Assembly: GCF_003945765.1 (NCBI RefSeq)
Contig: NZ_CP027712.1
Coordinates: 6,448,001-6,512,000 of the forward strand
DNA length: 64,000 nt
Origin: Pseudomonas chlororaphis subsp. chlororaphis
GTDB lineage: Bacteria; Pseudomonadota; Gammaproteobacteria; Pseudomonadales; Pseudomonadaceae
Direction of reading: 5' to 3'
Positions 20,126 to 55,404 of this stretch are shown here, one piece after another. The translations under genes and the position numbers were made by a program. Each line of letters opens with the position of its first letter. Within the stretch, counting starts at the first letter, position 1. The notes beneath the pieces are model-generated. The model was not told where the DNA came from and did no database searches. It saw only the letters and a list, made by a program, of their open reading frames with translations.

Positions 20126-20393
20126 GAAACACCCCGGTATTATTGCTGTTATGGGTTTAAATCGAGCTTAGCCTTGTTCATTTTTTTACACAACACCCCC
20201 GTAAAAAATACAACACGGCCCGCTCAAGGCTGCGGCGGCCAAGCCCTCCGAAGCCAGAAAAGCGCCCCAAAAATGCCCCGCAGGCGCTTTTTTAGGGCAA
20301 AAAAGGCCTCGCTTGACTTCGGCATGCCGTTCGGGTTGACTGAAACCTGAAAAGATCAATGATTGATATTTTTAACAACAAAGGTGTTGCATC
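20126..20393. promoter_or_regulatory. Divergent control region between spuA and spuI
   Basis: These 268 bases contain several signals. ACAACAC occurs at 20190-20196 and 20210-20216, exactly 20 bases apart, on the spuA side. A hairpin with GGCGC stem and T6 (20258-20293) resembles a terminator on either strand. ATCAAT-G-ATTGAT, a perfect 6+1+6 palindrome, lies at 20355-20367. CAACA-N4-TGTTG at 20376-20389 encloses the spuI ribosome-binding AAGG. The region is AT-rich around 20180-20215, where the spuA promoter must lie. The cognate repressor, probably a polyamine-responsive PauR-type protein, is inferred. Confidence 0.6.
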
Positions 20394-39207: not shown

Positions 39208-42081
39208 TCAGCGATAGGCATCCACCGGTACGCAGGCGCAGAACAGGTTGCGGTCGCCGTAGACATTGTCGACCCGGTTCACCGTCGGCCAGTACTTGTG
39301 CGCCCTGGCGTGGGGGCTGGGGATCACCGCCTGCTCGATGCTGTAGGGCCGCTCCCAGACCCCGGCGATGTCCGCCAGGGTATGGGGCGAGCGCTTGAGC
39401 GGGTTGTCTTCGGCCGGCCAGTTGCCTTCCTGGACCTGGGCGATTTCGGCGCGAATGCTCAGCATGGCCTCGATAAAACGGTCCAGCTCGGCCTTGGACT
39501 CGCTTTCGGTGGGCTCCACCATCAGCGTGCCCGGCACCGGGAACGACATGGTCGGCGCGTGGAAACCGTAGTCCATCAGGCGCTTGGCCACGTCCTCCTC
39601 GCTGATGCCGGTCTGCGCCTTGAGCGGCCGCAGGTCGAGAATGCATTCGTGGGCGACCCGGCCGTTGCGCCCGCTGTAGAGCACCGCAAAGGCCCCGCTC
39701 AGGTGTTCGGCCAGGTAGTTCGCCGAGAGGATCGCCACCTCGCTGGCATCCGCCAGCTGCGGGCCCATCAGGGCGATGTACATCCAACTGATCGGCAGGA
39801 TGCTCGCGCTGCCCCAGGGCGCCGCGCTGACCGCGCCGTTCTGCGGCAGCGGCCCGTCGATGGCCACCACCGGGTGGTTGGCCACGAACGGCGCCAGGTG
39901 CGCCCGCACGCCGATCGGTCCCATGCCCGGGCCACCGCCGCCGTGGGGAATGCAGAAGGTCTTGTGCAGGTTCATGTGGGAAACGTCGGCGCCGATATCG
40001 GCCGGCCGCGTCAGCCCGACCTGGGCATTGAGGTTGGCGCCGTCCATGTACACCTGGCCGCCGTGACTGTGGATCACCTCGCAGATCTCACTGATGCCCT
40101 CTTCGTACACCCCGTGGGTCGAAGGATAAGTGGCCATCAGGCACGCCAGGTGTCCGCCCGCAATCTGCGCCTTGTCCTTGAGGTCTTGCAGGTCGACGTT
40201 GCCGGCGGCGTCGCAATCGACGATCACCACCTGCATGCCGGCCATCTGCGCCGAGGCCGGGTTGGTGCCGTGGGCCGAGGCGGGAATCAGGCAGATATTG
40301 CGCTCGCCCTGCTGGCGGCTCTCGTGGTATTTGCGGATCGCCAGCAACCCGGCGTACTCGCCCTGGGCCCCGGAGTTGGGCTGCATGCAGATCGCATCGA
40401 AGCCGGTAATGGCGCATAACCAGCGCTCCAGCTCCTCGATCATCAGCGAATAGCCGAGGGCCTGTTCCGGCGGGACAAAGGGATGCAGGTTGGCGAAGCC
40501 AGGCCAGGTGATGGGGATCATCTCGCTGCTGGCATTGAGCTTCATGGTGCAGGAGCCTAGCGGGATCATCGACTGGTTCAGCGCCAGGTCCTTGTTCTCC
40601 AGCTGCTTGAGATAGCGCAGCATCTCGGTTTCGCTGTGATGGCTGTTGAACACCGGATGGTTCAGGTAAGACGTGCTGCGCAGCAGGTCCTGGGGGATGC
40701 CCGGGACCAGGGTTTCAGCATCCAGTTGCGCGACGTCCAGCCCGTGGTCGGCGCCGAGGAACACATCGAACAGCCGGGCGACGGTGCTCTCGTCGCAGGT
40801 TTCATCCAGGCTCAGGCCCAGGTGCCCGCGCCCGAGGATCCGCAGATTGATCTGCGCGGCCTTGGCGCTCTCGATGATGGCCGTCTGGCTACCGCCGACC
40901 TCCAGCGTCAGGGTGTCGAAGAACTGCCGGTTCAGCCGCTCGATGCCCTTGCGTTCAAGGCCGGCGGCGAGGATGCAGGTCAGGCGATGGACGCGCTGGG
41001 CGATGCGCCGCAAGCCTTCCGGGCCGTGATAGACCGCGTAGAAACTGGCGATATTGGCCAGCAGCACCTGGGCGGTGCAGATGTTCGAGTTGGCCTTCTC
41101 GCGACGGATATGCTGCTCGCGGGTCTGCAGGGCCATGCGCAGCGCCACGTTGCCCCGGGCATCCTTGGACACGCCGATGATCCGTCCCGGAATCGCCCGC
41201 TTGTACTCCTCGCGACTGGCGAAGAACGCCGCGTGGGGCCCGCCATAGCCCATGGGCACGCCAAAGCGCTGGGACGAACCGAACACCACGTCGGCCCCCA
41301 GCTCGCCCGGCGGCGTCAGCAGCAACAGGCTCAACAGATCGGCCGCCACGCAGGCCAGCGCCTGCTGCGCGTGCAGGTGATCGATCAGCGGCCGCAGGTC
41401 GCGAATCTCGCCGTGGGTGTCCGGGTATTGCAACAAGGCGCCGAACACCTGGTGCCGCTTGAGGTTGTCCAGGCTGTCGACCACCAGTTCGAAGCCGAAC
41501 CCTTCGGCGCGGGTCTGCACCACCGAGAGGGTCTGCGGATGGCAGTTCTGGTCGACGAAGAACAGATTGCTTTTCGACTTGGCCACGCGCTTGGCCAGGG
41601 CCATGGCTTCGGCGGCGGCCGTGGCTTCGTCCAGCAGCGAGGCGTTGGCCAGTTCCAGGCCGGTGAGGTCGATGGTCAGTTGCTGGAAATTGAGCAGGGC
41701 TTCGAGCCGGCCCTGGGCGATTTCCGGTTGGTAGGGCGTGTAGGCGGTGTACCAACCGGGATTTTCCAGCACGTTGCGCAAGATCACCGTGGGGGTCAGG
41801 GTGCCGTGATAACCCATGCCGATCAGGCTGGTCCAGACCTGGTTCTGCTCGGCGTAACCGCGCAGTTTGGCCAGGGCGGCCTGCTCGTCCAGCGCTGGCG
41901 GCAGGTCCAGCGGACGGTTGAAACGGATGCCCGGCGGCACGGTCTGTTCGATCAGCTCGACCCGGCTGCCCAGGCCCAGGCTGTCGAGCATCGCTTGCTG
42001 CTCGGCGGCGTCGGGCCCGAGGTGACGCCGCAGAAAGGCATTGGGATCGCGTAACTGGCTCAAGGACGGCAACTGGGACAT
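39208..42081 (-). CDS. gcvP: Glycine dehydrogenase (decarboxylating), P protein
   Basis: The 957-residue PLP enzyme decarboxylates glycine and loads the aminomethyl group on the lipoyl arm of GcvH. The PLP lysine lies in [17 protein letters not shown]; the N-terminal half is the catalytically silent copy of the fold, with the usual FLRRHLGP start. The length is normal for the single-chain form. It is encoded on the same strand as gcvH and gcvT but separated from them by 3.4 kb carrying three opposite-strand genes, so it cannot be in one simple operon with them. Confidence 0.95.
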
Positions 42082-42255
42082 GACGGGCTCTCTCTCAGGC
42101 GGCGCTCGGCGTCGATGGAACACGGTCAAAGCAGCATAGCAGCCGATCCCGCACGCCGACGGTCTGGCACCCCGGGCGAACCGGTAGCATGATGCTCGAC
42201 TCCGGCGCGGCCCGCCGCCCTGCCTCGACCACTGTTTATCGGGTATCCCATCGTC

Positions 42256-43398
42256 ATGAGCCAGCTGCCTTTCCTGCCGTTTTCCAAACCCACCATCGAT
42301 GAAGCCACCATCGCCAGCGTTGGCGAAGTGCTGCGTTCGGGCTGGATCACCAGCGGGCCCAAGGTCCAGGCCTTCGAGGCGCAACTCTCGCAGTACTGCG
42401 GCGGGCGCCCGGTGCGCACCTTCAATTCCGGCACCTGCACCATGGAAATCGCCCTGCGTATCGCCGGCATCGGCCCTGGCGATGAAGTCATCACCACGCC
42501 GATCTCCTGGGTGGCCACGGCCAACGTGATTCTCGAGGTCGGCGCCACCCCGGTGTTCGCCGACATCGACCCGATCACCCGCAACATCGACCTGGCCCAG
42601 GTGGAAGCAGCCATCACGCCCCGGACCAAGGCCATCATCCCGGTGTTTCTCGCCGGCCTGCCGGTCGATATGGCACGCCTCTACGCCCTGGCGCGCAAGC
42701 ACGGCCTGCGGGTCGTGGAAGATGCCGCCCAGGCATTGGGCTCAAGCTGGAATGGCGAGCGCATCGGCGCTGGCGGCGACCTGGTCTCTTTCAGTTTCCA
42801 GGCCAACAAGAACGTCACCTGCAGCGAAGGCGGCGCCCTGGTGCTGAACACCGCCGAAGAGGCTCGCCTGGCGGAGAAGTATCGACTGCAGGGCGTGACC
42901 CGACATGGCTTCGACGGCCTGGACGTGGACGTGCTGGGCGGCAAATTCAACATGACCGACGTCGCGGCCGCCATCGGCCTGGGCCAGTTCGCCCACCTCG
43001 AAACCCTCACCGCTCATCGCCGCGAACTGGCCCGGCATTACTTCGAATGCCTGGGCAGCGACTTCGAAACCCGCTACGGCGCCCAACTGCCCCCGGCGGA
43101 CTTCAGCAACAGCAACTGGCACCTGTTCCAGCTGGTACTGCCGCAGCGGCATGACGGCAAACCGGCGCGGGCGACCTTTATGGAGCAGATGCAGGAGCGC
43201 GGGATCGGCATCGGCTATCACTACCCGCCGATTCACCTGCTGAGCCTGTACCGCGAGCGCGGTTTCAAGGAGGGGATGTTCCCGGTGGCGGAACGGGTGG
43301 GACGCCTGATCGTCTCGTTGCCGATGTTCACGGCCATGAGCAAGGGCGATGTCGAACGCTCGGTAGCGACGGTGAAGGCTGTTTTGCAAGAGACATAA
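42256..43398 (+). CDS. DegT/DnrJ/EryC1/StrS family aminotransferase (ArnB-like)
   Basis: The 380-residue PLP-dependent sugar-aminotransferase-type protein is closest in appearance to ArnB/WecE. The cofactor aspartate is in [11 protein letters not shown] and the Schiff-base lysine is in [16 protein letters not shown]. An [11 protein letters not shown] segment marks the C-terminal part. Family members transfer an amino group from glutamate to a nucleotide-linked keto-sugar. No sugar, LPS or arn gene is nearby, so the substrate is unknown. It is divergent from gcvP (174 bases) and ends in its own terminator. It lies inside the stretch that splits the gcv genes. Confidence 0.85.
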
Positions 43399-43442
43399 AT
43401 AGACACCCAGCCCTTGAACGGCTGGTTTCTACACTATTCAAG

Positions 43443-43471
43443 ACGCTCAATATCCCGTTTTGGGCGTTTTT
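43443..43471 (+). terminator. Terminator after the DegT-family gene
   Basis: ACGCTCAA and TTGGGCGT form an 8-bp stem with one G-T pair and a 9-base loop, followed by T5. A smaller stem, CCAGCC/GGCTGG, lies just upstream (43407-43425). Confidence 0.75.
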
Positions 43472-43782
43472 ATTTCAGCAATAAATACAGTTGCCAATAG
43501 TTATATAAATATCCACTTGTCTGATCCTTTGCGCCAAAAACCAGACTCCCGGCGGCACTCACTTTAACCGCACACATAAGCACATGATAAATCAGCACGA
43601 ACCCATACATAAAATTTCCGAAATACAGACGACTTCAAAACAATAGCCAATCATTCTATAGACCAACTTTCCGCCTGCTATGTTTACTTATGACTGCGCC
43701 CTGGAGACAAAAGGCCATTACGCAGTTGCAAAGACCGTCACAAAATCCATGTTTCAATTTATTCGAAATGGAGTTCAAAGAA
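43472..43782. other. AT-rich intergenic region upstream of the first paralogue
   Basis: These 311 bases contain no convincing gene. They are clearly AT-richer than the chromosome average, with TTATATAAATAT (43501-43512) and several TATA-like boxes that could be promoters for the gene at 43783. I see no inverted repeat, attachment site or integrase remnant. Confidence 0.55.
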
Positions 43783-44466
43783 ATGAGCAGCCAACAAATA
43801 GTTGTATACATCGAAGAAGAACAGTTGATTGCGCAAAAGAACAACAACTACAGCCTCTATCTGGCCAAGAAAGTAAATAATGACTTTACGGTCATCTGGC
43901 AATCAAAAGGCCCCGTTGCCACAGTCAACAACCCTAGTTACCAATATAGAAACACCTTTGATATCGCCACCCCGTCCTTCATGGTCAACTTCACCAATGA
44001 CCCGGTCAGCAGTGGCGATGTCACCTTCACCTCCGGCGGGAAAAACCTGCCCATCAGTACTGGCCAGACCACGACGCTCGATGCGAACGGCGTGTTCACT
44101 CCGGCCAAGAATGGCGGCGTACCCTCGGATGTTCTCATCAAAAATGAGCTGCAAGGCAATCCGCATGCAATCCTCCTGGATTCCAACGGCAACAACATCT
44201 GGGTGAACCGTCAGAGCGGCATGAACATCGGCCCTGCGACGCTGACACCAAAGAGCCAATATCAACTCTGGTTCGGCAACATTCAGGAAACCGGTTCGTT
44301 GATCGCCATCAACCTGTCCAACCCCTATGTAGCGACCCTGCAGGATGGCGGCAGCGTCACCATTACCTACACCGACAGTGGCACCTGGGTGACCGGCGAA
44401 CCGGCCAGAGTCCTGAGCGCCTCTGAAGTCAGGGCGCTGCACGCCAGGCTCGGGATCGCGGCCTAG
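43783..44466 (+). CDS. Unrecognised beta-rich protein, paralogue A of a tandem pair
   Basis: I do not recognise this 227-residue protein. It has no signal peptide, membrane segment or cysteine. It begins MSSQQIVVYIEEEQLIAQK and is rich in N, T, S and G with alternating strand patterns, suggesting a beta-sandwich. It shares 44 of the first 61 residues with the protein at 44687, and similarity continues to the C-terminus (GTWVTGEPARVLSASEV against GAWVSGEPATSLTAEEV). GGAG stands 9 bases before the ATG. It is followed by its own terminator. Lectin-like, pore-forming and inclusion-body roles are all conceivable but none is supported by a motif. Confidence 0.75.
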   Translation: MSSQQIVVYIEEEQLIAQKNNNYSLYLAKKVNNDFTVIWQSKGPVATVNNPSYQYRNTFDIATPSFMVNFTNDPVSSGDVTFTSGGKNLPISTGQTTTLDANGVFTPAKNGGVPSDVLIKNELQGNPHAILLDSNGNNIWVNRQSGMNIGPATLTPKSQYQLWFGNIQETGSLIAINLSNPYVATLQDGGSVTITYTDSGTWVTGEPARVLSASEVRALHARLGIAA

Positions 44467-44562
44467 TCCGCCGGGCGGATCGAGCATCGGTTGCGCGAAG
44501 GACTTAGAGCACTGCGCGATGCCATTGGCAGTCTTCCGTTCGCACGTTGCGCTCATGCAAGA

Positions 44563-44597
44563 AAAACCCTGTATATCGTAGATCTACAGGGTTTTTT
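44563..44597 (+). terminator. Terminator between the two paralogues
   Basis: AAAACCCTGTA and TACAGGGTTTT pair perfectly around an 11-base loop, with T6 at the end. Paralogue A therefore ends here, and paralogue B probably has its own promoter in the 90 bases that follow (TATATAAAT at 44650-44658). Confidence 0.9.
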
Positions 44598-44686
44598 ATT
44601 GATGATGTCGAACTCATGGTTGAACGGGCCAGGTGGGGTCGAGACTCTGTATATAAATCATCCACAGGATGAGCGTGAGATTAGCC

Positions 44687-45394
44687 ATGAGTAAGCAAAC
44701 CATAATTGTCTATATTGAAGAAGAGCAACTTGTTGCGCAAAAGATAAATAACTACAGCCTCTACCTGGCCAAGAAAGTAAACAGTTCCTTCACTGTCATC
44801 TGGCTTTCAAAACCGCCATTCGCCGCCCCCAACCAACCGACTTATCAATACAAGAATATCTTTAATATCACCAATGATTCCTACATGGTGAATTTCACCA
44901 ACACACCGCTGCAAGAAGGAGACATCAATTTTACTTCAGGCGGAAAGAACCTACCCATCAACACAGGCCAGATAACCACCCTGGATCAATATGGTGTATT
45001 CAGCCCGGCAAGGAATGCTGGAACGCCAGGAGATGTTTCAATAAATAACGAACTTCCGGCCAACCCCAGCAATATATTATTGGACTCCACCGGACTCAGT
45101 CTCTGGGTGAACCGCTCAGGTGGCATGAATATAGGCATAACCACCATGACCCCCAAAAACGAGTTTCAACTATGGTTCGGTCCAGCCCAGGCAGCGGGTT
45201 CGCTGATCCCCAGCAGTCTGTCCAATCCTTACAACATGAGCGTGAACGACGGAGAAACCAAAACCGTCACCTACAACAATCAGGGCGCCTGGGTTAGCGG
45301 CGAACCCGCGACGAGTTTGACGGCAGAAGAAGTGGCAGAGCTTCACATCAGGGTGAACAAAGCCGTGCTGCGGGCCAGATCGCTCCGCCGCTAG
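44687..45394 (+). CDS. Unrecognised beta-rich protein, paralogue B of a tandem pair
   Basis: This 235-residue protein is the tandem paralogue of the protein at 43783. It begins MSKQTIIVYIEEEQLVAQK and keeps the shared segments NNYSLYLAKKVN, FTSGGKNLPI and SGGMNIG. It has no cysteine and no signal peptide. It differs by a basic C-terminal tail (VNKAVLRARSLRR). The first 60 bases of 44701-44760 contain only 20 G or C, far below the surrounding genes. The ribosome site is poor (GAGCGTGAGATTAGCC before the ATG). Function is unknown. Confidence 0.75.
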   Translation: MSKQTIIVYIEEEQLVAQKINNYSLYLAKKVNSSFTVIWLSKPPFAAPNQPTYQYKNIFNITNDSYMVNFTNTPLQEGDINFTSGGKNLPINTGQITTLDQYGVFSPARNAGTPGDVSINNELPANPSNILLDSTGLSLWVNRSGGMNIGITTMTPKNEFQLWFGPAQAAGSLIPSSLSNPYNMSVNDGETKTVTYNNQGAWVSGEPATSLTAEEVAELHIRVNKAVLRARSLRR

Positions 45395-45423
45395 GCCAGC
45401 CCCCAAGAGGTCGCCTGCAAACG

Positions 45424-45460
45424 AAAAACGCCGCGTACCCGATAAGGGCAGCACGGCGCT
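45424..45460 (-). terminator. Terminator after gcvH
   Basis: On the minus strand GCGCCGTGCTGCCC-TTAT-CGGGTACGCGGCG is an imperfect stem followed by T5. It lies about 29 bases beyond the gcvH stop and also faces paralogue B. Confidence 0.75.
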
Positions 45461-45488
45461 CTTGTAGCGGATTCGCGTCTGGCAGGGA

Positions 45489-45872
45489 TTATTCGCCGAT
45501 AGCGGCCTTATAACCGGCTGCGTCGAGCAGCTTCTCAAGATCAGCAGCGTTGGCCGGCTTGAGCTTGAAGATCCAGGCGCCGTACGGGTCGCTGTTGAGC
45601 AGCTCCGGGCTGCCGCTCAGGTCTTCATTGACCGCGATCACTTCGCCGGCCACTGGCGCGTAGATGTCGGAAGCGGCCTTCACCGATTCCACCACACCGG
45701 CCTGGTCGCCAGCGCCGAAGACATTGCCGACTTCGGTCAGCTCGACGAACACCACGTCGCCCAGGGCTTCCTGAGCGTGGTCGCTGATGCCCACGGTCAC
45801 GGTGCCATCGGCTTCCAGACGGGCCCATTCGTGACTTTCGGCAAAACGCAGGTCAGCAGGGATATCACTCAT
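45489..45872 (-). CDS. gcvH: Glycine cleavage system H protein
   Basis: The 127-residue lipoyl carrier shuttles the aminomethyl intermediate between GcvP and GcvT. The lipoylated lysine lies in [14 protein letters not shown] (about residue 64), and [19 protein letters not shown] is the typical N-terminal part. The ATG at 45872 has GAGG 9 bases upstream. It is 51 bases downstream of gcvT on the same strand and is followed by a terminator. In related species gcvP would follow directly. Confidence 0.95.
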
Positions 45873-45923
45873 GTTCTGTGTCCTCAAGAAGAAATGTCAG
45901 CGGTAGATCCCGCCGGAAATAAG

Positions 45924-55213: not shown

Positions 55214-55391
55214 CACTCCCTGGGGTGCTTGCCAGTTGGCGATGTCCCTGAGCCGATTCGCACTACCCTGGAAGTTGCACGTTGGGCCGGTGTGCATGTC
55301 CGCTAGACGGAAAGCCTTAACGCCTACTGCATCTTCCGCCTTGAACTTTCGGGTTCAAGGGCTAAGTCGACAGCGGTTCATCCGGGGAGCC
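55214..55391 (+). ncRNA. ssrS: 6S RNA
   Basis: This 6S RNA of about 178 nucleotides binds sigma-70 RNA polymerase and mimics an open promoter. The closing-stem ends ACTCCCTGGGG and CCGGGGAGC pair. Internal landmarks match Pseudomonas ssrS, including GATGTCCCTGAGCCGAT, GTGTGCATGTCCGC, GACGGAAAGCCTTAA and CCTTGAACTTTCGGGTTCAAGG. It lies between zapA and the 5-formyl-THF cyclo-ligase gene, the classical position. The ends are estimated from the stem. Confidence 0.93.
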
Positions 55392-55404
55392 TGAATTCCA
55401 TGCC

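Follow-up and report, generated by a model that had tools for sequence, protein, structure and literature searches.

A tandem pair of diverged beta-rich proteins in Pseudomonas chlororaphis and the patchily distributed superfamily to which it belongs

What might a bacterium gain from keeping, side by side, two diverged genes for proteins that resemble no recognized family? The question is raised by a locus of Pseudomonas chlororaphis subsp. chlororaphis contained in the window analyzed here, which is a stretch of 64,000 nucleotides of contig NZ_CP027712.1 (positions 6,448,001 to 6,512,000). The two genes, which we call copy A and copy B, are as follows.

43783..44466, + strand: copy A, 227 residues, signal-less and predicted to be mostly beta, defined by its translation and by orthologues at the same locus in Pseudomonas genome G108 and P. 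brassicacearum 48H11
44687..45394, + strand: copy B, 235 residues, a paralogue of A with 62% identity, defined by its translation and by orthologues in the same two genomes

The analysis leads us to regard A and B as two versions, retained over a long time, of a single member of a superfamily of apparently soluble, signal-less proteins with a predicted beta-sandwich fold, which is carried in the bacterial accessory genome and is, as judged from literature searches and profile libraries alone, undescribed. We are highly confident of the superfamily and of the history of the pair as set out below, and far more tentative about what the proteins do.

Both reading frames are open and the genes are intact. 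A and B are identical at 141 of 227 aligned residues, with 44 identities in the first 61 columns; successive blocks of 40 columns hold 32, 22, 28, 24, and 21 identities and the last 35 columns hold 14. The block FTSGGKNLPI is the same in both. Neither protein contains cysteine, while Asn, Thr, Ser, and Gly are abundant, and the highest Kyte-Doolittle means over 19 residues (0.58 and 0.66) indicate that neither has a membrane segment or a hydrophobic signal peptide. Longer open reading frames (ORFs) could start at 43690 and 44669, and the starts given above were chosen because the aligned homologues also begin there. An earlier note, written from the DNA alone, had described adjacent paralogues of 227 and 235 residues with 44 of 61 N-terminal residues identical, free of cysteines, signal peptides, and membrane segments, and most conserved at the N terminus and in FTSGGKNLPI; translation, alignment, and the hydropathy scan agree with it on each point. 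A search of the whole contig, a single one of 6.81 Mb, found A and B as its only members.

Selection has acted on both copies. Adjacent orthologues of the two occupy the same locus in two further Pseudomonas genomes, G108 and P. brassicacearum 48H11 (locus L017), and the ratio of nonsynonymous to synonymous substitution rates (dN/dS) is 0.07–0.17 across six orthologue pairs, with dS values of 1.2–3.0 that are near saturation and could not be computed for several pairs between A and B or involving the single-copy Pseudomonas genome G186. Both copies are thus under purifying selection, and the retention of the pair at one locus in two other genomes together with the low dN/dS argues that the pair is more than chance. 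In a tree of 36 rows, whose branches are long and whose deep joins are unsure, the A and B proteins of these three genomes form separate clades (support 92/88 and 96/96), which places the split between A and B before the divergence of the three.

The wider distribution of relatives is patchy. In a genus sample, 25 of 398 genomes, our own included, have a member: three are of the window type (our own genome G000, G108, and G186) and 22 belong to a second type, hereafter group 2, with about 28% identity. Our own genome was the sole match in a family-level sample of 99 genomes, 89 of them of other genera, and one of two matches among 369 genomes at class level, the other being dropped. With wider profiles, phylum-level samples returned 2 of 378 genomes (our own and G1203) and 4 of 299 (our own, G853, G905, and G930), and among 60 relatives of G1203 the two matches were G1203 itself and another that was dropped. 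The genome search reaches no further than its first look allows, so that lack of a match in a sampled genome is no proof of absence. Two profile matches were set aside as unconvincing: one in G595, which covered 73 residues within an ORF of 860 residues, and one in G1276, which resembles a shadow ORF. Plasmids also carry relatives, namely those of Aminobacter (six records, 49% identical to a group-2 member), Rhizobium rhizoryzae, Skermanella, R. etli, and Vibrio. Broken copies occur on plasmids of Ensifer (L067), where the frame is broken, and Alicyclobacillus (L078), where an IS200/IS605-type tnpB gene is inserted. The G186 member (L046:9555-10526) is extended at its C terminus by about 90 residues, which include a hydrophobic stretch.

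Profile-profile comparison by hhalign ties these sequences together. It used 34 of the 36 rows, leaving out the divergent L076b and L095c, and was controlled by 40 column shuffles for each comparison and by reversed profiles. Scores between the four branches ranged from 33.7 to 101.3, above the shuffled maxima of 18.3–26.5 and the reversed scores of at most 15.1. The window type scored 101.3 against group 2 (shuffled maximum 21.5) and 60.8 against the branch of G1203, G853, G905, G930, and R. rhizoryzae (shuffled maximum 26.5). The weakest link is that between the window type and the branch of Skermanella, R. etli, and Vibrio, with 33.7 against a best shuffle of 24.8, but the two are bridged by group 2 and the G1203 branch, which score 96.7 with each other, and by the latter and the Skermanella branch, which score 99.7. 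By this profile evidence A and B belong to a patchy superfamily found in Pseudomonas, on plasmids of rhizobia, Skermanella, and Vibrio, and in other Proteobacteria. Across the 36 rows, W39, G94, N121, and Y196 are conserved in 35; P156 is kept in 34, as is basic character at the position of K29. The conserved W, G, N, P, and Y with one basic residue have a structural look and make up no obvious catalytic set of polar residues, so that binding or assembly seems likelier than catalysis.

Pairing recurs in the superfamily. Leaving aside the branch that joins group 2 and Aminobacter, at least two copies lie within 8 kb in 10 of the remaining 13 genomes or records, a count that takes in neither additional copies near the R. 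etli and Vibrio plasmid matches nor the two broken copies. Tandem copies are carried by G000, G108, P. brassicacearum, R. rhizoryzae, Skermanella rosea, S. mucosa (adjacent), G905, and G930, and three copies by G853 and by G1203, one of whose copies is shortened. Within-lineage pairing is seen in the tree for the copies of S. rosea (support 95/79), those of R. rhizoryzae (95/89), and two of those of G853 (100/100). Taken with the separate A and B clades, this suggests at least four separate duplications; that of G905 and G930 may predate these two genomes, with weak support of 94/52. The interpretation of the earlier note, which suggested selection for two versions, is partly supported: both copies are under purifying selection and tandem duplication has recurred, and the joint working of the versions is a conjecture to which we return below.

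Profile libraries gave no convincing family for these proteins, in keeping with the earlier statement that no motif could be recognized. The matches were weak and scattered. In Pfam, copy A matched Reg_prop (E 0.033, below the cut-off). Across 23 members, 14 Pfam-A families were listed at E<=1, including Phage_fiber_2 in three members (best E 0.0034) and DUF6266 in one (E 0.001). NCBIfam gave a best E of 0.006, in four of 23 members, and nothing for A or B; PHROGs gave a best E of 0.026, in two of 14 members; PADLOC found nothing for six proteins. Against Protein Data Bank (PDB) sequences the best E was 0.22 for A, and profiles A1, A2, and A8 and the Aminobacter protein gave nothing below 1. 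Full-text literature searches found no match for peptide motifs of the family, and none for a tandem paralog with a beta-sandwich.

The fold comes from models. AlphaFold confidently predicts for one relative a beta-sandwich with a predicted local distance difference test (pLDDT) value of 88, and for copy A it gave a weak model. The fold is predicted to be an immunoglobulin/transthyretin/CnaB-like sandwich with extra strands. Foldseek found nothing with the weak model of A and, with the good model of the relative, nothing at E<=0.001 among PDB and viral models; families missing from the VIA lists of this Foldseek work are not thereby ruled out. The starch-binding carbohydrate-binding modules (CBMs) CBM41 and CBM25 came up as structural neighbors of the window's own weak model; no CBM profile matches any of the 23 members at E<=1, and profile A8 finds no PDB chain at E<=10. 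Known transthyretin/CnaB-like sandwiches (the PepT2 extracellular domain, Gram-positive pilins, TssJ/IglE, and HIU hydrolase/PucM) differ in that only about 72–94 residues align, with TM-scores of at most 0.28 among the matches listed and none at E<=0.001.

In a rival reading, each protein would be a lectin or a toxin component directed against insects, nematodes, or other eukaryotes and released by lysis, with the pair widening the range of ligands. We regard this as possible though somewhat unlikely. Known toxin families rich in beta structure (aegerolysin, ETX/MTX2, thermostable direct hemolysin, and others), which Pfam includes, did not appear for A or B at E<=10 or for the 23 members at E<=1. 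PIP-47Aa, as described in PMC5787824, has 295 residues, and PMC7726476 concerns an all-helical protein of 85 residues.

Many of the relatives have a gene for a transcription regulator, or one that looks like it, as a neighbor. In group 2 (L048-L065 and L072-L075), a convergent regulator-like gene adjoins the member at all 22 loci, cut by the contig end in L072 and seemingly interrupted in L050; its product shows weak, sub-threshold similarity to Trans_reg_C and 31% identity to an Aminobacter regulator with winged helix-turn-helix (wHTH) and tetratricopeptide repeat (TPR) domains. A regulator of AraC type stands before the member in R. rhizoryzae, R. etli, and Aminobacter, G905 has one of Crp type upstream, and a wHTH-nSTAND1 protein of 1100 residues is encoded between family copies in G853 (L095:8532-11834). 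Small genes also occur: one for 78–82 residues (one partial) lies upstream at 13 of the 22 group-2 loci, for which Pfam gave nothing with the one copy scanned and plasmids gave no match, and one for 98 residues, 61% identical between the two genomes and likewise lacking a Pfam match, lies upstream of the tandem pairs of both G905 and G930 (L096:8675-8971 and L097:7158-7448). Homology of the group-2 small protein to the N-terminal extension of the R. etli member was unsupported (hhalign 12.8, shuffled maximum 23.2). In G1203, a protein of 157 residues with a hydrophobic segment near its C terminus and no Pfam match is encoded between two family copies (L071:6279-6749). After both Skermanella pairs (L077 and L128) come a phosphopantetheinyl transferase gene and nonribosomal peptide synthetase genes; on the other side one pair has a terminase-annotated gene and a cassette resembling those of type I secretion, and the other has glycosyltransferases. 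The gene annotated as a terminase small subunit, with its paralogue, stands alongside the S. rosea pair and not beside that of S. mucosa.

Regulators beside many relatives, the lack of a signal, and the richness in Asn, Thr, Ser, and Gly would suit an intracellular inclusion or a storage or stress protein made in bulk in stationary phase, after the manner of PixA/AidA, whose members are signal-less, accessory, regulated, and of a size like that of A and B. The PixA/AidA inclusion body family, which Pfam includes, was, however, absent from the families at E<=1 for the 23 members, and we consider this explanation doubtful.

The immediate surroundings of the pair are the following.

43399..45488, no strand assigned: lineage-specific insert holding A and B, supported by the adjacency of its flanking genes in relatives and by G+C content
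42256..43398, + strand: left flank, presumed DegT-type aminotransferase gene, an ORF with the same flank in L017 and L047, outside the system
45489..45887, − strand: right flank, presumed gcvH, an ORF matched in all 40 genus genomes searched, outside the system
44558..44601, + strand: hairpin with a T-run, lying between the two genes (folding energy −18.7 kcal/mol, z −5.55; none of 200 shuffles did as well)

The flanks, named from their sequences, are taken to encode a DegT-type aminotransferase and the glycine cleavage H protein. The pair is an insertion between them. A gcvH search covered 40 genus genomes, with loci taken from the 30 best, our own among them, and the 29 others compared: the aminotransferase gene adjoins gcvH with a gap of 70–258 bases in 12 of the 29, which marks the 2.1 kb that hold the pair as a lineage-specific insert, gcvP adjoins it in 11, and in six neither lies within 1.5 kb or before the contig end. 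The G+C content is 0.54 in A and 0.49 in B, versus 0.61–0.65 in three neighboring genes. The hairpin, which a consensus scan did not list, is probably the intrinsic terminator of A; the same scan of the locus, whose outcome carries little weight, found no sigma-70-type promoter-like site. In the genus the stretch between gcvH and gcvP (window 39208-43398) also varies in the aminotransferase gene: it adjoins gcvH at 12 of the 29 loci, and at 11 gcvP stands directly beside gcvH instead. Elsewhere in the window, Rfam matches Pseudomonas sRNA P1 at 20131-20300 (+) and 6S RNA at 55214-55392 (+).

A tail fiber-like, structural role in a phage or some other mobile element, to which the weak Phage_fiber_2 matches (below the cut-off where shown) and the terminase-annotated gene of S. 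rosea might point, is very improbable and already disfavored, since three members used as queries matched none of 50,697 phage records, scans of viral contigs yielded no confirmed relative, and the flanks of the pair resemble housekeeping genes.

We are thus brought back to A and B as two versions of one superfamily member that act together. The repeated fixing of two diverged copies might mean that the versions work together, and the regulators that adjoin many relatives count in favor. A and B would be non-enzymatic and would bind or assemble; they might form a working particle by associating with each other or by binding two ligands that are related. Its production would be confined to certain conditions, and it would either stay in the cell or escape by lysis, with a target outside the cell on the surface of a host or competitor. 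We put this forward tentatively, as rather less than an even prospect. Several points weigh against it. Copies are single in G186, R. etli, and Vibrio, and group 2 and Aminobacter, which form one branch of the tree, are single-copy (no tandem in 22 group-2 genomes, one place per Aminobacter record), so that pairing is not obligatory. The putative terminator implies that the ratio in which A and B are made may vary. Beside the window pair, neither the group-2 regulator nor its small partner has a homologue, and the flanking ORFs include no recognizable regulator. The direct profile link to the Skermanella branch is modest.

It is conceivable, although unlikely, that the superfamily represents a new and widespread class of two-version, self-assembling beta-sandwich proteins, in which a working particle is built from two related chains, the tandem copies have arisen separately in several lineages, and a small partner of about 80–98 residues is often encoded upstream or fused N-terminally. 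Two proteins that were hypothetical can now be placed in a defined superfamily that has a conserved core, a recurring arrangement of genes, and, for one member, a confident model; one structure or one pull-down would thus be informative for many species. That two diverged copies have been fixed repeatedly and separately is a testable indication that both versions are required.
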